From a virus, in the IMG/VR virus record IMGVR_UViG_3300027708_001759, positions 1 to 24,628 of that record: a stretch of DNA of 24,628 nucleotides; one strand, written 5' to 3'. The translations under genes were made by a program, and so were the position numbers. The notes under the pieces were generated by a model, which was not told the DNA's origin, ran no database searches, and worked only from the letters and a program-made list of their open reading frames with translations. Position 1 is the first letter of the stretch; each line of letters starts with the position of its first letter. Positions 2,071-23,799 of this stretch are shown piece by piece.

Positions 2071-2344
2071 TGTCGTCCGCCGTTGCGACGCCACGAAGGG
2101 CCAAAACCATCGCCAGAGATTTAACTCCAATTGTGAACATTGTCTGCTCCAGATCCTTAGCTACGTTTGCATCGCGTTGTGCATCTGCAAGCAGAATATC
2201 ACGATCCACCGACACCAACATTTGACGGATACGATCCGCCGATGGATCTGGAAGATAGACCGATGCCTTACGAACTAACTCGTCGTGAGCTGTTGTAAAG
2301 AGATCGTGACTTTCGTCTAAAAACTTCTTATTCTTTCGAGCCAT
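2063..2344 (-). CDS. Hypothetical protein, 93 residues, helical
   Basis: This small protein is predominantly helical and charged, with a basic N-terminus (MARKNKKF) and an acidic end (DDND). I recognise no family, and no metal site or membrane segment is seen. It starts at ATG 2344 behind AGAAGGGGAAATAA, one of the best copies of the recurrent start signal in this genome. It overlaps the resolvase-like gene upstream by 17 bp and the exonuclease downstream by 8 bp. Its place between two nucleases suggests a DNA-metabolism accessory role, which is inference. Confidence 0.75.
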   Translation of the reverse strand: MARKNKKFLDESHDLFTTAHDELVRKASVYLPDPSADRIRQMLVSVDRDILLADAQRDANVAKDLEQTMFTIGVKSLAMVLALRGVATADDND

Positions 2345-2702
2345 TTATTTCCCCTTCTGATCTTGGATCGCCATAACCCGCGTCTCGTAGTAGTTCCACG
2401 AGGACTTTAAGCGGGACGATCGCTGGCCATTTCTCTATTGACGCAGGTCCAAATCCGTCTGGACGAAGTACCGCTACTGGAATGATTCCTTCAGCGATTC
2501 TTTCGGCAGCCTGATTCATTGCTTCCGTGACTGGAAAACCCCTGCGAGCTTTAACTTCCCAATCAATTCCTACAGTTCCGGTTACATCGGTCCCTTGTCG
2601 ACCTGCACCGGCAGATTCAGCAAAGGGCCAACCATGATCAGCGAGATAGTTTGCCACTATCTTCTGAGTTGCATAGCCGCGATGTTTCCGATGTTGACTC
2701 AT
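2328..2702 (-). CDS. PD-(D/E)XK nuclease, Holliday-junction-resolvase-like
   Basis: The product is 124 residues from ATG 2702, which forms an ATGA overlap with the upstream synthase; a longer in-frame start at 2846 would lie wholly inside that gene. The N-terminus RKHRGYATQKIVANYLADHG resembles small resolvases, and GRQGTDVTG followed by WEVKARRGF supplies the D...ExK core of the PD-(D/E)XK fold. Similar small proteins are common in actinobacteriophages and are thought to cut branched or junction DNA. A VRR-NUC-like nuclease is an alternative within the same fold. The last 17 bp overlap the next gene, so the C-terminal residues EGEING are partly dictated by that gene's ribosome-binding site. 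Confidence 0.7.
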   Translation of the reverse strand: MSQHRKHRGYATQKIVANYLADHGWPFAESAGAGRQGTDVTGTVGIDWEVKARRGFPVTEAMNQAAERIAEGIIPVAVLRPDGFGPASIEKWPAIVPLKVLVELLRDAGYGDPRSEGEINGSKE

Positions 2703-3535
2703 ACGATCCGTTCTCGAGCTTGATAGACAGCGCTTTCGAGCCAATGCTCGAAGGTGGTCAATCCTGGCAGATAAAGGTTCGCTTGCCACCCATAAAGGAT
2801 CGCTCTTGCGGTTAAACTTATTTCTTCGATCGTATTTTTTGACCAAAGTGGCTCATAGTCCCAAGTTCCATCATCAATTGCGCGCAATTGCTCAGCTTTT
2901 TCGATGTCTCTATGGTATAAGTGCAAAGATCCAACTGAGTGAGAATACCAACCCATCGGCAGATCCAACGCTTTAGCTATGGCGCCTTGCATGGCAGCAA
3001 ACTGGACCAAATCGTAGGGAAGACCAAGCCACACGTCATTCGAGCGCATAGTCGTTCTCATACAAAGAGATCCATTTCTGATCAAGAACTGAAGCGATAA
3101 CGTGCAAGGAATATCTTTAACTTGAGCTCCAAGATCCTGCTTTGAATCAAAAATCGTCAGGATCGCTTGGCGCGTATCCGGATCTGATTTCAACAGATCC
3201 ACCAAAGCTTCAAGTCGTCCATAGATCCGCTGACCGTAAGCACCATGAAAGACGCCGCCGTCCAGATAGTTCGCAAAGACGCTAGATCCGGAGACCACCA
3301 ATTCCGGTGCGACAGTAGTACCCACCAACTGGAGAGCTTCGACCGCGCCGATGAAAGGCTTGAGTTCCCGGTACTTCACCTCATATGGCATCAACCACGG
3401 GCGATTAACCTTGAAGGTGACGTTGGTGAGTTCCTGAGTATCCTGACCTCGAGGAGAGATTTTGTCCCCGTGGACCAAGCACATGCCGATAGCTGATTCA
3501 ACAACCTCGGACGGAGTATCAAGTTCTAGGTACAT
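2699..3535 (-). CDS. Thymidylate-synthase-fold enzyme, probable dCMP hydroxymethylase/methylase type
   Basis: The product is 278 residues from ATG 3535, behind AAAGGGATC; an in-frame TTG at 3553 is possible but less likely. Fold motifs, numbered from this ATG, are: Glu67; the YGQR loop at 100-103; DPDTRQ with phosphate-binding Arg122; the catalytic Cys144 in DIPCTL; RSND (164-167); GLPYDL (171-176); and SLHLY (203-207). In dUMP-specific ThyA the residue after PF/PY is Asn (E. coli Asn177). Here it is Asp175, as in T4 dCMP hydroxymethylase, where that Asp recognises cytosine. The motifs MRSNDV and VGSLHLY also look closer to T4 gp42 as I remember it than to ThyA. Known family chemistry: transfer of a one-carbon unit from methylene-tetrahydrofolate to C5 of the pyrimidine nucleotide. 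Neighbouring kinase, pyrophosphatase and deaminase genes fit. An ordinary ThyA remains the main alternative. Confidence 0.8.
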   Translation of the reverse strand: MYLELDTPSEVVESAIGMCLVHGDKISPRGQDTQELTNVTFKVNRPWLMPYEVKYRELKPFIGAVEALQLVGTTVAPELVVSGSSVFANYLDGGVFHGAYGQRIYGRLEALVDLLKSDPDTRQAILTIFDSKQDLGAQVKDIPCTLSLQFLIRNGSLCMRTTMRSNDVWLGLPYDLVQFAAMQGAIAKALDLPMGWYSHSVGSLHLYHRDIEKAEQLRAIDDGTWDYEPLWSKNTIEEISLTARAILYGWQANLYLPGLTTFEHWLESAVYQARERIV

Positions 3536-3998
3536 CTGGAAGATCCCTTTCAAGGTCGTTGGAGTTAATGATTTCTACGTTGTCCATACGATCAGCAAGA
3601 TCGATGAACATGCTCTGAGCTCGGATCACGTCGTCGATCTGATCTTGTTCGCCGCGCAGCATGAGAGTTGTTGATATGGCGTCGATGTCTCGATAAACGA
3701 GGATCAAGCGAGCGCCTAATTCTTCGATCATGGCGTTGCAGAGTTGGAATGATTCCGGACGCTTGTAAAGCGATGGACGATTAAAGATCGTGGGCCAGAT
3801 CATCTCGCCCATATGCCATCGATCCAAGATCAGGTTTTCTTCTTCTTCAGCATCAACAATTGGCTTAATATATTCATCGAACCAATGGTTATGAGTTGGA
3901 ACACCGGCGTGAATGATTCGTGCGTTCTGTTCCTTAGCTAACCACGCCGCATGAGAACTCTTTCCAGTCCCATCAACGCCTTCTAGGATCGTGATCAT
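3519..3998 (-). CDS. P-loop deoxynucleoside monophosphate kinase, thymidylate-kinase-like
   Basis: The 159-residue protein has a Walker A loop EGVDGTGKSS (Gly7-Ser14) and the DRW motif (59-61), which takes the place of the DR(Y/F/H) of thymidylate kinases. A basic LID-like stretch MLRGEQ lies near residue 115. It would phosphorylate a dNMP, dTMP or a modified dCMP, using ATP. It is shorter than typical bacterial Tmk (about 210 residues). ATG 3998 is chosen because it gives an ATGA overlap with the preceding pyrophosphatase and follows AAAGGA; an in-frame TTG lies two codons upstream. The end overlaps the synthase gene by 17 bp, so the two products are made together. Substrate choice cannot be decided from the sequence. 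Confidence 0.8.
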   Translation of the reverse strand: MITILEGVDGTGKSSHAAWLAKEQNARIIHAGVPTHNHWFDEYIKPIVDAEEEENLILDRWHMGEMIWPTIFNRPSLYKRPESFQLCNAMIEELGARLILVYRDIDAISTTLMLRGEQDQIDDVIRAQSMFIDLADRMDNVEIINSNDLERDLPDVPRT

Positions 3999-4444
3999 GC
4001 GCAATCCTTTCCAAAGTCCTCAGATTGATCGCAGCCTTCTTCAGCTGAGCAAAGAACTCCAGGATCGTCCATAGCACGACCACATTCAGTACACTTTCCC
4101 CAAACTCCGTCGTATCCCTTGTTCTGGCGGATCATGTTGCGATTTGCCTTTTCCATATATCTGGTTTCAACCTCTTCCGCTGTGGCTCCGGCAGCAAGCC
4201 AAAGGTTCACTAGGAAGTGCAGAACATCAACCAATTCGCCAATAAAGGCGTCCCGGTTCAAGTGCCGGGAAGTAGCCCACGGCTTCCAGCCCACCTCAGC
4301 CAAAGCTTCGTGGAGTTCATCGGTAGCCGCAAGGACCATATCCCTAATGAACTGATTTCGGGTCTCATCGTCCATACGATGCGGATCTATTCCAAAAGAT
4401 TCACGCTGGAGCTGAGACTGACGTTCGAAAATCATGTCAAGCAT
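3995..4444 (-). CDS. All-alpha dUTP/dCTP pyrophosphatase with C-terminal zinc ribbon
   Basis: Residues 1-112 match the dimeric dUTPase/MazG-like all-alpha NTP pyrophosphatase pattern. They contain an ExxE (Glu43, Glu46) in DELHEAL, a downstream W-KPW, and ELVDVLHFLVN with Glu70 and Asp73. The latter four acids bind Mg2+. K-N-RQ-GY (99-111) follows. Family members hydrolyse dUTP, and in T4 (gp56) also dCTP, to the monophosphate. Residues 115-140 add CTEC...C...C (Cys118, 121, 132, 138), a probable zinc ribbon not usual in the family. The gene starts at ATG 4444 behind GAAGGGGAAATAA, overlaps the deaminase by 8 bp and the kinase by 4 bp. It would feed dUMP or dCMP to the synthase. Confidence 0.75.
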   Translation of the reverse strand: MLDMIFERQSQLQRESFGIDPHRMDDETRNQFIRDMVLAATDELHEALAEVGWKPWATSRHLNRDAFIGELVDVLHFLVNLWLAAGATAEEVETRYMEKANRNMIRQNKGYDGVWGKCTECGRAMDDPGVLCSAEEGCDQSEDFGKDCA

Positions 4445-4868
4445 TTATTTCCCCTTCATACTTCTTTACGTGGATACCCAATCGATCTGCGATCCTATTT
4501 AGCTGATCTGGTGGATATGTTTCTTGGTTGATTTCTCCTAAATAGAAGATCTCTTTTATGCCGTAAGCTGAGATCAGCGGAAGGCAATTCATACAGGGCC
4601 GATGCGTCACCGCCAGAAGTCCGCCACGAGTATCCATTGGCGTGACATATCTGAGCGCGTTGGCTTCAGCGTGGATCACATAAGGGCGCCGAGATTCTCG
4701 ATCGTCCCAATTCAACTGAACGCCGGAAGGCGCGCCGTTGTATCCAATACTTGCCACTGATCGATCCGGTCTGAGTACAACCGCACCGACTTTTAACCAT
4801 GGGTCCTCACTACGAAGAGCCGCCGTTTCTGCCAGGGCAAGAGCGTATTCGGTCCAATTCAGTCTCAA
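4437..4868 (-). CDS. dCMP deaminase family protein
   Basis: The 143-residue protein has the zinc-dependent cytidine/deoxycytidylate deaminase motifs: HAE (His66, catalytic Glu68) in VIHAEANAL, and PCMNC (Cys92, Cys95). It also has the family's GYNGAPSG loop (42-49) and VGAVV near the start. The expected reaction is dCMP to dUMP, which supplies dTMP synthesis. It appears to begin at TTG 4868, because no ATG occurs before residue 78 and TTGA overlaps the stop of the HTH gene exactly as ATGA does at other junctions. It is the first of four consecutive nucleotide enzymes. If the synthase uses dCMP, this enzyme would compete for or balance the same pool, as T4 cd does. Confidence 0.88.
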   Translation of the reverse strand: MRLNWTEYALALAETAALRSEDPWLKVGAVVLRPDRSVASIGYNGAPSGVQLNWDDRESRRPYVIHAEANALRYVTPMDTRGGLLAVTHRPCMNCLPLISAYGIKEIFYLGEINQETYPPDQLNRIADRLGIHVKKYEGEINA

Positions 4869-5080
4869 CGCGAGGATCTCTTTCGACCATCGCTTTGCCG
4901 GACCAATTGCTGCACCCGTGAAGTGGAAAGATTCAGGATCTCAGCTATCTGAGCATATGTCATGCCCTGATTTCTGGCCCGAAGAATCACTTCAAGGAAC
5001 TTTTCTTTACTCTTGGTTACTGAATTTGCATGAGTTTTGACTTCTCGGTGCCAATGTTTTAACTGATCTTCAATAGTCAC
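4865..5080 (-). CDS. Small helix-turn-helix protein
   Basis: The protein has about 71 residues. A basic N-terminal helix is followed by MTYAQIAEILNLSTSRVQQLVRQ, summarised here as a two-helix unit at about residues 40-62. This is a sigma-region-4/LuxR-type helix-turn-helix, and the C-terminal tail is basic (GRKRSSR). It probably binds DNA and could control the early operon or the divergent region upstream. The start is uncertain: GTG 5080 gives a GTGA overlap with the preceding stop, while TTG 5089 lies only four bases from an AAAGG. It heads the nucleotide-enzyme block and ends in TTGA, overlapping the deaminase start. Confidence 0.65.
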   Translation of the reverse strand: MTIEDQLKHWHREVKTHANSVTKSKEKFLEVILRARNQGMTYAQIAEILNLSTSRVQQLVRQSDGRKRSSR

Positions 5081-5358
5081 TCGCGCCAAGCCGCCTTTGG
5101 AGCATATGGTTCACGAGAATTGTCTTCAATTCCGATCCAAATTGCTGGCTCAGGGCAATGTTCACATTCTTTTGTGGTTGGACATTCGCAATCGTCGGAA
5201 TCTTCATCATCAGTTTCCACAACGGTTACCGCTGAAATGAATCCGGCAAGCGGATAACTGCGCTGATAAGCAACATTGACTTCTTGATCCGCAAGATCAG
5301 GATATTCGTCAGCCAATTCTTCAAGCTTTTCGATCAGTTCATTAAGTGTATATGACAT
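5077..5358 (-). CDS. Acidic cysteine-rich hypothetical protein
   Basis: This 93-residue protein has an N-terminal helix (NELIEKLEELADEYPDLADQ), then a strand-rich stretch with V-V-ET. A very acidic DDEDSDDCEC segment follows, with CxC and CxxC pairs that could bind a metal. I recognise no family for certain. The N-terminal leading helix with a YPDLADQEVNVAYQ-like motif resembles small phage proteins of unknown function. The gene starts at ATG 5358 in a TAATG overlap with the preceding 57-residue gene, behind AAAGGTGG. Confidence 0.7.
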   Translation of the reverse strand: MSYTLNELIEKLEELADEYPDLADQEVNVAYQRSYPLAGFISAVTVVETDDEDSDDCECPTTKECEHCPEPAIWIGIEDNSREPYAPKAAWRE

Positions 5359-5992: not shown

Positions 5993-6033
5993 GTGTGCTT
6001 ATTCTATTCCATGGGAGTAGAATTATGCTATGA

Positions 6034-6054
6034 AGCTGATCGACGGGATCAGCT
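6034..6054 (+). promoter_or_regulatory. Leader hairpin before the first plus-strand gene
   Basis: A perfect 8-bp inverted repeat, AGCTGATC (6034-6041) and GATCAGCT (6047-6054), has a 5-nt loop. It ends seven bases before the GAAGGG ribosome-binding site of the gene at 6074. There is no T-tract, so it is not a terminator; it may stabilise the mRNA or tune translation. A GATC site sits in each arm. Confidence 0.45.
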
Positions 6055-6073
6055 GATAACGAAGGGTAATAAC

Positions 6074-6277
6074 ATGAAAAAGATTAGTACACAAGTTCGC
6101 AACGAATTCGATATGTGTGGACTTCCAGATCAGCTTCGCGCTCAGAATAACGTTCTTGATTATGCATCACGCAATATGAGTGAAGCAGAATATATTGAAA
6201 TGTATGAATCAGGATCTAAAGAATATCAGTCAGCTTGTGACGCTTTTGTTTCTCTTATTATGATGGGACGTAATTAA
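6074..6277 (+). CDS. Small acidic hypothetical protein, first gene of the plus-strand unit
   Basis: This 67-residue protein starts at ATG 6074, six bases after GAAGGG. The upstream in-frame extension to 5993 is rejected because it would start inside the putative promoter and leader hairpin. The sequence is helical and acidic (NMSEAEYIEMYESGSKEYQ), with no membrane segment and no recognised domain. It is the leading gene of six tiny plus-strand genes, placed opposite to all other genes and probably expressed early. Confidence 0.7.
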   Translation: MKKISTQVRNEFDMCGLPDQLRAQNNVLDYASRNMSEAEYIEMYESGSKEYQSACDAFVSLIMMGRN

Positions 6278-6278
6278 T

Positions 6279-6449
6279 ATGAACGGTTATACAAAAGAAA
6301 TTGCTGAACTACTCAATATCTCTATTGAAGAAGCTAAAAAAGTTCAGGATTACTTGGAAGAAGAAATTGGCATTGATTACTCAGAATGTACTCAGCGCGA
6401 ATTTAATTTATCAGTGAAGCTTGCTGCTTCAGAAATGAAGGTTGCATAA
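6279..6449 (+). CDS. Hypothetical protein, 56 residues, possible HTH
   Basis: The frame begins MNGYTKEIAELLNISIEEAK, one base after the preceding stop, and ends SEMKVA. Residues 4-25 (TKEIAELLNISIEEAKKVQ) have the spacing of a small helix-turn-helix, but the charged face makes this weak. It ends in TAATG, overlapping the next start, with AAGGTTGCATAATG forming ribosome-binding site, stop and start together. Accepted from tiling and overlaps. Confidence 0.6.
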   Translation: MNGYTKEIAELLNISIEEAKKVQDYLEEEIGIDYSECTQREFNLSVKLAASEMKVA

Positions 6450-6646
6450 TGTCAATGTCACGTAAAGATTATGAATTAATTTCTGAAGCTTTGAATTTTG
6501 CAAAAAACGTTGTTAATGAATCAGGACTTTATGATCCTGAGTCAGCAATTGGATTAGCGTCAAATATTATTGCTGACGCAATTGAACGCAATTATCCTAA
6601 TTTCCGCCCAACACAATTTCTAGAAGCAGCAGGAGTACAAAAATGA
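6449..6646 (+). CDS. Small conserved phage protein (MSRKDYELI type)
   Basis: The 65-residue protein starts MSMSRKDYELISEALNFAK and ends NYPNFRPTQFLEAAGV. This pairing, a SRKDY-like N-terminus and an NPxFdrxxFl-aCG-like C-terminus, is a recurring small protein of phages and prophages. Its function is, to my knowledge, unknown. The usual Cys near the end is Ala here. It shares TAATG with the gene before and ATGA with the gene after, so it is translationally coupled on both sides. Confidence 0.75.
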   Translation: MSMSRKDYELISEALNFAKNVVNESGLYDPESAIGLASNIIADAIERNYPNFRPTQFLEAAGVQK

Positions 6647-6951
6647 TAAACATGGACACTATTCTTGAAGAAATTAAGAAGATCGATTCGGAAGTAAATG
6701 CTGAAATGTGGCATACCGGTGGCGGTTGCATGACGATTTATCTTGGAACTCCTGATCAAGACGGCATATATCCGGTTGCTGCTGGTCCTGGATTTAGACG
6801 TGATGGTCAAAATGTTGCTCATTTTGATGATTTTTGTTATGGAGAAGATGGCGACGGCGTTTTTGAATACGTCCAGTCTGGATCTGACCTTGAAATTGCG
6901 CGTCGTATCTATAGCTTTTATGAGTATATGAACATGCATAAGGAGGCATAA
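6643..6951 (+). CDS. Hypothetical protein, 102 residues
   Basis: It starts at ATG 6643 (ATGA overlap, AGGAG seven bases upstream), or possibly at the internal Met4. The product is acidic and aromatic: an N-terminal helix (TILEEIKKIDSEVNAE), then a strand-rich stretch with GGGCMTIYLG and AGPGFRRDG, an acidic YGEDGDGVFEYV, and a final helix. The layout looks like a single alpha/beta domain. No catalytic motif is recognised, and function is unknown. Confidence 0.7.
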   Translation: MINMDTILEEIKKIDSEVNAEMWHTGGGCMTIYLGTPDQDGIYPVAAGPGFRRDGQNVAHFDDFCYGEDGDGVFEYVQSGSDLEIARRIYSFYEYMNMHKEA

Positions 6952-7182: not shown

Positions 7183-7254
7183 AAAAGAGACCGCCTACGA
7201 TCAGGATCATGGACAGAAGGGGTTGCCATGATCCGCCGTAGGCGGTCTTTTTTT
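7183..7254. terminator. Bidirectional terminator between convergent units
   Basis: The outer arms GACCGCCTACG (7189-7199) and CGTAGGCGGTC (7237-7247) are perfect. They are flanked by A6 on the left and T7 on the right, so the structure terminates on both strands. A second nested 9-bp stem (GGATCATGG 7204-7212, CCATGATCC 7226-7234) closes a 13-nt loop. It separates the plus-strand small-gene unit from the 3' end of the late operon; the last late gene stops inside its T-tract. Confidence 0.92.
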
Positions 7255-7519
7255 ATTCCTGTGTAGCTAATTCGCCGCCGATTGCCATATAAGCCGCGCC
7301 GTCGATCCAGCCGTCAAGTTTATCTGGAGATTGAACTAATCGGGCAACCTTGAGCTGATTCATGCACAAGGCAACCTGATATTCAGTAATTGGAGTTTCC
7401 AGGACGATGCTCCAGAGCTTTGCGATCCTGTAGAAGTTCTCTTGCGGTGTTCCGTACTCGGCTTCGCGGTCGTTGTAGATCAGCTCAGAAGCCACGTTTA
7501 GGATTTCTCCCCTGTTCAT
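7253..7519 (-). CDS. Conserved phage protein, DUF6378-like
   Basis: The 88-residue protein has the pattern R-ILNVASELI-NDREAEYGTPQENFYRIAKLWS, followed by Q-KVARL and DGWIDGAAYMAIGGE. I recognise this as a common helical phage family (DUF6378-like) of unknown biochemical role. Its helical acidic motifs loosely recall all-alpha nucleotide pyrophosphatases. It starts at ATG 7519 behind AGGGGAAAAT. It is the last gene of the late operon; its stop codon lies in the terminator. Confidence 0.75.
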   Translation of the reverse strand: MNRGEILNVASELIYNDREAEYGTPQENFYRIAKLWSIVLETPITEYQVALCMNQLKVARLVQSPDKLDGWIDGAAYMAIGGELATQE

Positions 7520-16922: not shown

Positions 16923-17120
16923 TTATCTGCCTCTCATATTTGTTGTCGCAACGACTCGGACACCCATGTCACCGCGGTTTGTGTAATAGTTGTAAATAAC
17001 TAAAGGTTGGTTATACATCACACCGGTTTGATTGTAGCGGTAGTGATATTTGGACACCTCGTGAGACTCGCGCCAGTTCATAGAAGGAGCGGCAACTACG
17101 CGAGGTTGAATATCACTCAC
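16923..17120 (-). CDS. Tyr-rich hypothetical protein, 65 residues
   Basis: It starts with GTG 17120, overlapping the glycosyltransferase stop by 8 bp, and ends with TAA two bases before the connector start. The protein is rich in Tyr and Asn (SKYHYRYNQTGVMYNQPLVI, YNYYTNRGD) with no hydrophobic segment. I recognise no family. It lies in the head-tail region, and a minor virion role is a guess. Confidence 0.55.
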   Translation of the reverse strand: MSDIQPRVVAAPSMNWRESHEVSKYHYRYNQTGVMYNQPLVIYNYYTNRGDMGVRVVATTNMRGR

Positions 17121-18165
17121 TTATAGCTCCTTCATAATGCTTGAGGTTTTCCTTGAGACGATCAATCCAGGGAGCAAGTTCGACGGCTTTTCTGCCATGC
17201 TCGACAGCTTCTGAATAGTTATTAAGGTTATATGCTGAAATCGCAACCAAATCGTGAGGCAAGTATCCCCAGGCATCCGATTCTACTAGATATTCCAGCG
17301 GTTGCTGCGTAATCCTGAGCGCTGAGTGAGCCATAGCATAGCACTCAATCCAGCGACCTTCTGAGTAGTAATGCTCGGCAAGATCAACCCGGGGTTCCCG
17401 GCTGATCGGGGATTCTGCAATAGCTTTGAACAGCCAGCTCTCCCGGTCCTGATCTTCCATCTTGGCAAGGTATCTCATAGAAGCTGCGCGCTCTGGTTTC
17501 CAGACCGCCTTAGGAAGCTCTAGATGACGCTTAAACTGAGCAATGGCTTCAGTGTAATGGTTGTGAAAGAAGAGTTCCCGGGCATAATAAAAGGTATTCC
17601 GATCATCAGTCGGATCTTCCTTTATCGCCAGACGTAAAAGAGGAAAGTATTGACCCCTGGACTTGGTTTGATCCGGGTGATGATGGATCTCAAGCTTGGT
17701 CCATAGCTGATTTTCCTGATCCTGACAGGTAAGAACCTCGTGAACCGGGTGCTTCCAGCGGAACCCTTTGCGTGTGTGGATCTTGTCCCCGCCGTAGGTA
17801 AGGCCAGGGGATCCGTCTGGGTTCCAAGACCAGGTGTACTTATACCGAGGTCGATTAACGCCAGGGTCTAGCGTCTCGAGCTCAGATCTCCAGCCGGGGA
17901 GAAGGACTTCGTCCATGTCCAAGGCTATGCAGTAGTCAACATCCAGCGGAAGTGCGGCTAATGCAGCGTTGCGGGCGTCATCAAAGCGCCAGGGTGAGAT
18001 CTGAACGCTGATGACCTTGATGCCCAGAGCTTCAGCTCTAGATCTGGTCTCATCGGTCGATCCGGTGTCCGCGATTAGCAAGACATCGGCTTCTTTGGCT
18101 GATTCATACCATTTTTGGACAAATTGCTCTTCGTTAAGCGCGATTGTATAGACTGCAATTTTCAT
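17113..18165 (-). CDS. GT2-family glycosyltransferase with TPR repeats
   Basis: The protein has 350 residues. The first 200 form a GT-A domain: YTIALNEEQFVQKW at the start, ADTGSTDET (32-40), FDDARNAAL, and DMDEVL with the DxD metal site Asp83-Asp85. HPVHE and HHHPDQ follow. Residues 200-345 are helical pairs with TPR-like spacing (ARELFFHNHYTEAIAQFKRH; AISAYNLNNYSEAVEHGRKA). Family members transfer a sugar from a nucleotide donor; fused TPRs often bind the protein acceptor. Placement beside collagen-like and receptor-type fibre genes points to virion glycosylation. AGGGGGATCA precedes ATG 18165. Confidence 0.85.
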   Translation of the reverse strand: MKIAVYTIALNEEQFVQKWYESAKEADVLLIADTGSTDETRSRAEALGIKVISVQISPWRFDDARNAALAALPLDVDYCIALDMDEVLLPGWRSELETLDPGVNRPRYKYTWSWNPDGSPGLTYGGDKIHTRKGFRWKHPVHEVLTCQDQENQLWTKLEIHHHPDQTKSRGQYFPLLRLAIKEDPTDDRNTFYYARELFFHNHYTEAIAQFKRHLELPKAVWKPERAASMRYLAKMEDQDRESWLFKAIAESPISREPRVDLAEHYYSEGRWIECYAMAHSALRITQQPLEYLVESDAWGYLPHDLVAISAYNLNNYSEAVEHGRKAVELAPWIDRLKENLKHYEGAISE

Positions 18166-19529: not shown

Positions 19530-23030
<3,501 letters not shown>

Positions 23031-23053: not shown

Positions 23054-23094
23054 GCATCGGACTAGCTGCCAGGGGGTAACAACTAGTCCGATGC
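23054..23094 (-). promoter_or_regulatory. Hairpin at the end of the glycosyltransferase gene
   Basis: Perfect 12-bp arms GCATCGGACTAG (23054-23065) and CTAGTCCGATGC (23083-23094) enclose a 17-nt loop. The stop codon of the gene lies within the stem. The sequence downstream on the minus strand (CTCTATAAATC) is not a clean T-tract, so this may be a weak terminator or an mRNA-stabilising element just before the fibre's ribosome-binding site. Confidence 0.6.
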
Positions 23095-23799
23095 TTTAGA
23101 TTTACTTTCCAAAGCCGCCTCGCGAAACGGCTTGTGGTGACGTTGATCGAGCCAAAAAGTTTTATTATGCGCGCAGATCGCGCCAGTATGAGCGTAAATC
23201 GGGATACCAAGAGATCCAAGACGACGGGAAAAGAGTAGATCTTCACCAAACCAACGACCAGCAATTGCGCCATCTACAAACCAGGCCCAATCTGGACCCT
23301 GATTTTCAGTAGCTTTGCTTTGAAGCTCAAGTAAGACTGATCGATGGATTAAAAGACATCCAGTTCCTGCGGCATCGACCTTAATCAGTTCATCAACGGG
23401 ATAATCGTCCATTGCCTGAAGACCAGACTCGGGAAGATCGCGATAAATCGTTGGTACCGGCCGAAGATGGTTATCATCGTCAAAAAAGGCAGCAAAGACC
23501 AGCGCCGATACTATCGGACGATCCTTATCGTGGACAGCATTGACCAATTTATCAAACGTTTCTAGCTCTAAACGCTCGTCTGAATCAATCATAAGCAGCC
23601 ATTCGGCTGAAGTTTGTTCTAAAAAATTCTTTACTAGAAGATTTCTAGATCTTGTAAGAAGTCCAATATTAGAAACTTGAACAAAAGAATCAAATCTTTC
23701 TGATCTCTTTCGTGAGATCTGGATCAAATCAATCACTAGATTTGCATTAATCGATCCGTCGTTAACCATTCCTATGGCAACTTTATCTTTACTTTTCAT
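23083..23799 (-). CDS. GT-A-fold glycosyltransferase
   Basis: The protein has 238 residues. TRSRNLLVKNFLEQTSAEWL leads to LLMIDSDERL with the DSD metal site (Asp72-Asp74). Later come AAGTGCLLIHRSV and FGEDLLFSRRLGSLGIPIYA. Together these are the donor, metal and acceptor-loop features of a GT2-like enzyme. Unlike the enzyme at 17113-18165, it has no TPR repeats. It starts at ATG 23799 in an ATGA overlap with the preceding gene, behind GTGGAGATACG. It lies directly upstream of the collagen-like fibre gene, so the fibre or the capsid are its most obvious acceptors. Confidence 0.8.
   Translation of the reverse strand: MKSKDKVAIGMVNDGSINANLVIDLIQISRKRSERFDSFVQVSNIGLLTRSRNLLVKNFLEQTSAEWLLMIDSDERLELETFDKLVNAVHDKDRPIVSALVFAAFFDDDNHLRPVPTIYRDLPESGLQAMDDYPVDELIKVDAAGTGCLLIHRSVLLELQSKATENQGPDWAWFVDGAIAGRWFGEDLLFSRRLGSLGIPIYAHTGAICAHNKTFWLDQRHHKPFREAALESKSKASD

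Follow-up and report, generated by a model that had tools for sequence, protein, structure and literature searches.

A compact phage operon with a predicted dCMP hydroxymethylase and a probable role in cytosine modification

Four overlapping genes at positions 4868 to 2699 of a 24,628-nt virus record (IMGVR_UViG_3300027708_001759, positions 1-24,628; hereafter the window) raise the question of whether they modify cytosine at the level of deoxycytidine monophosphate (dCMP) or merely convert deoxyuridine monophosphate (dUMP) into thymidine triphosphate (dTTP). A sequence-only reading had proposed a synthase acting on dCMP and modified cytosine in the phage DNA, with the plain dUMP-to-dTTP route as the competing view. 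We found the dCMP-acting route to be much better supported, on the basis of the conserved Asp177/Thr147 pair of the synthase, the published markers of cytosine-modified phages (PMC8670742), the ThyA or ThyX co-resident with such enzymes and the restriction-resistant DNA of phage AXL3; the residues, the ThyA/ThyX co-occurrence and AXL3 leave the competing view much less supported. The operon very likely serves some C5 modification of cytosine through a dCMP-directed pathway, and probably encodes a dCMP hydroxymethylase that feeds modified deoxycytidine triphosphate (dCTP) into phage DNA with modified cytosine.

The four genes lie consecutively on the minus strand, run from 4868 to 2699 and overlap their neighbors by 8 to 17 bases, so that the coordinates, order and overlaps first read from the sequence were borne out. 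The first gene (4437..4868) encodes a dCMP deaminase of 143 a.a. with HAE and a PCMNC zinc motif of the PCxxC type (PF00383, 61.3 bits), related to solved dCMP deaminases (2w4l, 1e-17; the T4 enzyme 1vq2, 5e-7). It is followed by an all-alpha nucleoside triphosphate pyrophosphatase of the dCTPase/dUTPase type (3995..4444, 149 a.a.), which scores above the PF08761 cut-off (48.2 vs 22.9 bits) and shares a conserved C-terminal motif with T4 gp56 (blastp 2e-10). Next come a P-loop nucleoside monophosphate kinase resembling thymidylate kinases (3519..4004, 161 a.a.), with a weak match to phrog_761 (3.3e-4), and an enzyme of the thymidylate synthase (TS) fold, which we predict to be a dCMP hydroxymethylase of the Asp177/Thr147 type (2699..3535, 278 a.a., ATG start; PF00303, 67.8 bits; phrog_5131, 7e-41; best PDB match MilA, E 2.5e-24). 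Between the window and a sister genome (G002), the TS-fold protein differs at 4 of 278 residues while the DNA identity is 92% (nonsynonymous divergence, dN, 0.009; synonymous divergence, dS, 0.39), indicating that the gene is under strong purifying selection and that the genes are real rather than chance reading frames. Searching phages for the operon at the DNA level returned a single short match.

Numbered from the ATG at 3535, the catalytic Cys144 and Thr145 of the TS-fold enzyme (codons 3101..3106, minus strand) align with Cys146 and His147 of E. coli ThyA, and Asp175 (codon 3011..3013, minus strand) aligns with the base-reading Asn177, in a MAFFT alignment with ThyA and T4 gp42, the latter likewise having Cys-Thr. 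Asp175, Cys144 and the motifs MRSNDV and VGSLHLY, for which gp42 has MRSNDV and VGSLHVY, were thus correctly recognized from the sequence. The enzyme carries the dCMP-type signature of the fold (Asp177, Thr147 and catalytic Cys146 in ThyA numbering). It does not qualify as a canonical ThyA, given Asp175 in place of Asn177, and it missed the canonical ThyA NCBIfam equivalog cut-offs (58.5 bits vs 108.35 for TIGR03284; 60.8 vs 327). Both Asp177 and Thr147 were found in 90 of the 91 aligned relatives, a count that is biased for Thr147 since one of the two search patterns demands PCT, while neither pattern includes the Asp column; the exception, the dUMP hydroxymethylase SPO1 gp29, carries Asn at both positions. 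To our knowledge, Asp177 accompanies cytosine substrates in every studied case. In the MetaGPA study (PMC8670742), positions 177 and 147 marked cytosine-modified phage contigs best, Asp177 occurring mainly in the modified ones, and PF00303 co-occurred with dCMP deaminase and MazG-type / phosphoribosyl-ATP pyrophosphohydrolase domains. The window shares with those contigs the signature at both positions, the dCMP deaminase and the co-occurrence with a MazG-type pyrophosphohydrolase.

We then asked to which branch of the fold the enzyme belongs. An AlphaFold2 model (predicted local distance difference test, pLDDT, 88.4) aligned best in VIA-align with MilA (Z 26.9 over 269 residues, 2.7 Å), followed by AfhB (Z 22.7 over 218 residues) and then ThyA entries (about 20); T4 gp42 is not among the 50 matches listed, which has no bearing on the fold. 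A tree of 138 rows separates a clade of T4 gp42 types from a ThyA clade, each with a long branch and full support, and places the window enzyme with MilA and SPO1 gp29 in the large group that is left, in a topology where deep support is uneven, MilA (a partial sequence) and SPO1 sit on long branches, and AfhB was left out. The window enzyme does not group with T4 gp42 in this tree and lies outside the fully supported T4 clade, which corrects the sequence-only reading. Its closest solved relative in both sequence and structure is MilA, the CMP 5-hydroxymethylase of mildiomycin biosynthesis (PDB 5jnh, 5b6d), which has the same fold, the Cys-Thr pair and Asp at the base-reading position. MilA differs in that its product is an antibiotic rather than DNA, and in Lys133 and Ala176, the residues for its preference for ribo-CMP (PMC5175136), whose counterparts in the window enzyme are Arg and Ser, as in deoxy-specific enzymes. 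Because of these replacements, dCMP rather than CMP is the expected substrate, and we rejected a MilA-like ribonucleotide substrate, both MilA-specific residues being absent. A hydroxymethyl product is favored since MilA and SPO1 gp29, the two enzymes of the branch that have been characterized, both act as hydroxymethylases, although 5-hydroxymethyl, 5-hydroxy and 5-methyl products are indistinguishable from sequence.

Two other dCMP-directed chemistries have to be weighed here. AfhB of phage HY126 (9iqc, 9iqu), whose activity and flavin use on dCMP are taken from the PDB titles, is the second-best structural match, above all ThyA entries, and likewise acts on dCMP; a window enzyme of this kind would place a bare hydroxyl at C5, giving 5-hydroxy-dCMP and DNA with 5-hydroxycytosine or its glycoside. 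We regard such a hydroxylase as unlikely, since MilA is clearly nearer in sequence and structure and AfhB is shorter and not in the tree. A dCMP methylase producing 5-methyl-dCMP and 5-methylcytosine DNA has a natural precedent in phage XP12 (PMC5175136), and single Asn-to-Asp changes in ThyA lead to dCMP methylation (cited in PMC8670742). We consider methylation quite unlikely as well, because the two characterized enzymes on this side of the tree make hydroxymethyl products, and because Trp80 of ThyA is replaced by Phe and conservation does not extend to the ThyA C-terminus, features that would fit the release of a hydroxymethyl product. The link between the loss of Trp80 and hydroxymethyl release goes back to work on Trp mutants.

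The genomic company of Asp-type enzymes elsewhere bears on the thymidylate route. Our scan of bacterial genomes yielded 66 Asp-type homologs, and all of the alignable ones (65/65) have Asp177 and Thr147. A canonical ThyA or ThyX was also present in each of the 37 tested bacterial genomes with an Asp-type enzyme, and ThyX accompanies the Asp-type enzyme in four viral records, AXL3, PW916 and GMA2 among them, so the Asp-type enzyme is not a sole thymidylate (dTMP) synthase. The bacterial enzymes (66 genomes) mostly lack an adjoining kinase or deaminase. In Stenotrophomonas phage AXL3, gp27-gp30 have the same four activities as the window genes, with the same Asp/Thr enzyme type, and the phage DNA withstands 35 of 37 restriction enzymes, only two AT-only enzymes cutting it; the authors interpreted the gene cluster as dTMP synthesis (PMC7504290). 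Unlike the window virus, AXL3 encodes both a ThyX and a DNA polymerase I. In Enterococcus phage VFW, a beta-glucosyltransferase gene lies two genes downstream of the TS-fold homolog. A plain dTTP supply (dCMP to dUMP to dTMP to dTDP), with Asp as a neutral lineage trait, agrees with the annotations as thymidylate synthase and kinase, with the use of deaminases and dUTPase-type enzymes in dTTP synthesis too and with the lack of another TS among the genes found in the virus, but it is highly improbable in view of the cytosine substrates that accompany Asp177 in the studied cases, the ThyA or ThyX beside the Asp enzyme in bacteria, the four viral records with ThyX and the resistance of AXL3 DNA.

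How far the likeness to T4 extends was judged from the partner genes. The window set has the same activities as T4 gp42, gp56, gp1 and cd, with the same active-site Cys-Thr and Asp and the gp56 motif in the pyrophosphatase. It differs from T4 in the clade of the synthase, the kinase, the lack of a detected DNA polymerase gene and the packing of the genes in one operon. The kinase had been taken as the gp1 counterpart, but it scored only 2.1 bits against T4 gp1 (hmmsearch), with no sequence homology beyond the P-loop, and gp1 ancestry was rejected on this ground. The designation "T4-like" is thus apt for the set of activities and fails for descent, with a synthase separated from gp42 in the tree and a kinase that is not gp1-like. 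In about 80 related loci, the kinase, TS-fold and deaminase genes occur together, nearly always with the kinase immediately before the TS-fold gene, and with the deaminase either before or after this pair. Only near relatives have the window-type pyrophosphatase within the operon; elsewhere a homolog lies near a C5-methyltransferase-like gene described below, in the flanks of 63 of 83 such loci.

From the overlapping genes, the residues of the active site, the fold predicted for the enzyme, the conservation and the genetic linkage, we infer the following pathway, in which the TS-fold enzyme would read dCMP via Asp175 and attach a one-carbon unit to C5; the most likely product is 5-hydroxymethyl-dCMP. 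The kinase, if specific for this product, would raise the modified dCMP towards the triphosphate, with the host nucleoside diphosphate kinase completing the step. The all-alpha pyrophosphatase would remove dCTP (and dUTP), leaving the modified dCTP for use and returning dCMP as fresh substrate, and the deaminase would divert surplus dCMP to dUMP for the host thymidylate synthase. Synthesis of phage DNA with modified cytosine would fall to the host polymerase, given that the virus genome yielded no DNA polymerase gene, and glycosyltransferases or the linked methyltransferase-like protein may tailor the base later.

The genome of the virus extends beyond the window. An IMG/VR contig (G001) matches window positions 1-23911 at 99.99% and extends the sequence by 9.2 kb. 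The sister genome G002, also from IMG/VR, has 36,216 bases and comes from the same virus group; its two ends adjoin each other inside G001, so it is apparently complete and circularly permuted. Its gene list comprises a prim-pol/AAA protein, HNH, a RecB-like exonuclease, structural genes, two glycosyltransferases and a C5-methyltransferase-like protein.

Several observations weigh against the proposed pathway, some of them specifically against full cytosine replacement. Pfam, PHROGs and depositors label the TS-fold enzyme "thymidylate synthase", its fold is shared by the dCMP hydroxylase AfhB, and the kinase resembles thymidylate kinases rather than gp1. We found no ThyX, and no separate ThyA, in the virus genome (G001/G002), though the host would supply one. 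If all cytosine were replaced, the C5-methyltransferase homolog of the same genome would be without its normal substrate. In the G001 and G002 genes (a genome of about 36 kb), no DNA polymerase gene was seen and no obvious host-DNA degradation system was noticed; complete replacement is therefore less certain than in T4. If the hydroxymethylase pathway does operate, it would be a compact one in a phage of about 36 kb without a detected DNA polymerase gene, the modified DNA being built by host machinery. Altered cytosine is a known kind of disguise against host defenses. The same module is labeled as thymidylate synthesis in many actinobacterial phages, where modified cytosine may then be far commoner than the annotations imply, which would matter for restriction, CRISPR and type IV defenses.

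A possible further modification step, acting on cytosine that would already be modified, is suggested by the C5-cytosine-methyltransferase (MTase)-like protein, which is tightly linked to Asp-type enzymes and encoded outside the window (G001 26328-27479; PF00145, 68 bits). Strong phage homologs of it (E < 1e-30) occur in 15 records, all 15 of which have a TS-fold gene, against a baseline of any TS match in 2157 of 50,697 phage records; phage relatedness is only partly controlled in these linkage counts. Asp177/Thr147 was confirmed in the MTase-bearing DSL-LC01, GodonK, GMA2, Sixama and Kurnik. In the reverse test, PF00303 was present in 28 of the 30 viral contigs retrieved by the MTase, and the 28 enzymes all have Asp177/Thr147, one of them being of the T4 type, as is also the enzyme of Micrococcus phage Kurnik. 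These 28, reached through a genetic link independent of the enzyme's own sequence, add to the conservation of both residues. One MTase family thus accompanies two separate lineages of dCMP-type enzyme. In Kurnik (a 56 kb actinophage), a T4-gp42-type dCMP hydroxymethylase, two glycosyltransferases, a MazG-like protein and the MTase-like gene are almost consecutive. Larger phages have pyrophosphatase, epimerase, UDP-galactopyranose mutase and glycosyltransferase genes around the MTase-like gene, and Pfam and PHROGs scans of several other neighbors assigned no function. Near relative G009 carries the four operon genes and both glycosyltransferases and lacks the MTase, indicating that the MTase is accessory in this virus group.

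The MTase-like protein has the C5-MTase fold in its AlphaFold2 model (pLDDT 89). The family keeps PPC and E-x-V, whereas two usual cofactor-loop residues, Phe and the first Gly of motif I, are replaced, and all 41 sequences have [NC]PPC and an invariant Lys at the column of M.HhaI Asn304. A basic residue at this position, on the same fold, is shared with CmoX (PDB 8yf3), a DNA cytosine carboxymethyltransferase that uses carboxy-S-adenosylmethionine (carboxy-SAM) and has Arg there (PMC12783734); the window virus protein differs in having Lys for Arg350 and [NC]PPC for SPPC. Carboxymethylation with carboxy-SAM was rejected, as the CmoX residues and CmoA are missing: the carboxy-SAM synthase CmoA (TIGR00740) was found in 0 of 26 records, with a positive E. 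coli control, although a host may provide CmoA. C5-MTases react weakly with 5-hydroxymethylcytosine (PMC11347137). We tentatively raise the idea, doubtful as it is, that the protein no longer methylates and instead attacks C6 of modified cytosine in DNA through its retained Cys (PPC) and Glu, exchanging or extending the 5-substituent with an unspecified donor, which would be a new DNA hypermodification. A literature search found no paper linking this MTase to the TS-fold/dCMP pathway, nor any on the DNA of the Gordonia phages in question, and the link is, as far as could be found, undescribed. The MTase-like protein is absent from the main text of PMC8670742, and it stands in place of the carbamoyltransferase of the MetaGPA contigs; no carbamoyltransferase was recognized among the genes examined here.

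The remaining genes of the window include two glycosyltransferases, both on the minus strand within the structural gene block and both present in sister genomes. The first, of the GT2 family (17113..18165; phrog_13126, 2.9e-118), is 61% identical to a DSL-LC01 glycosyltransferase, and the second, GT2-like (23083..23799; phrog_34859, 8.4e-27), adjoins the capsid gene. They may tailor the modified DNA or virion proteins such as the capsid or a collagen-like fiber. The latter is a very long protein with GPTG-type repeats (window 19530-23030, 1166 a.a.), whose counterpart in G002 has only 691 a.a.; it is a fast-changing fiber gene.

The operon is flanked in the same transcription unit, on the minus strand, by two genes that are kept in near relatives. 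A helix-turn-helix protein similar to sigma-70 region 4 (4865..5089; PF04545, 30.4 bits) overlaps the deaminase start, and a RusA/Hjc-like resolvase (2328..2702, with a start codon of our choice; phrog_244, 1.3e-10) follows the TS-fold gene. Positions 5993-6951 contain short plus-strand open reading frames in an AT-rich stretch, opposite in direction to nearly all other genes, and are possibly a control region. A DUF6378 protein (PF19905) is encoded at 7253-7519, where PHROGs families annotated as phosphofructokinase also match. Finally, an HslV-like peptidase homolog (phrog_1040) at G001 28724-29326 adjoins an HNH gene, upstream of the terminase genes.

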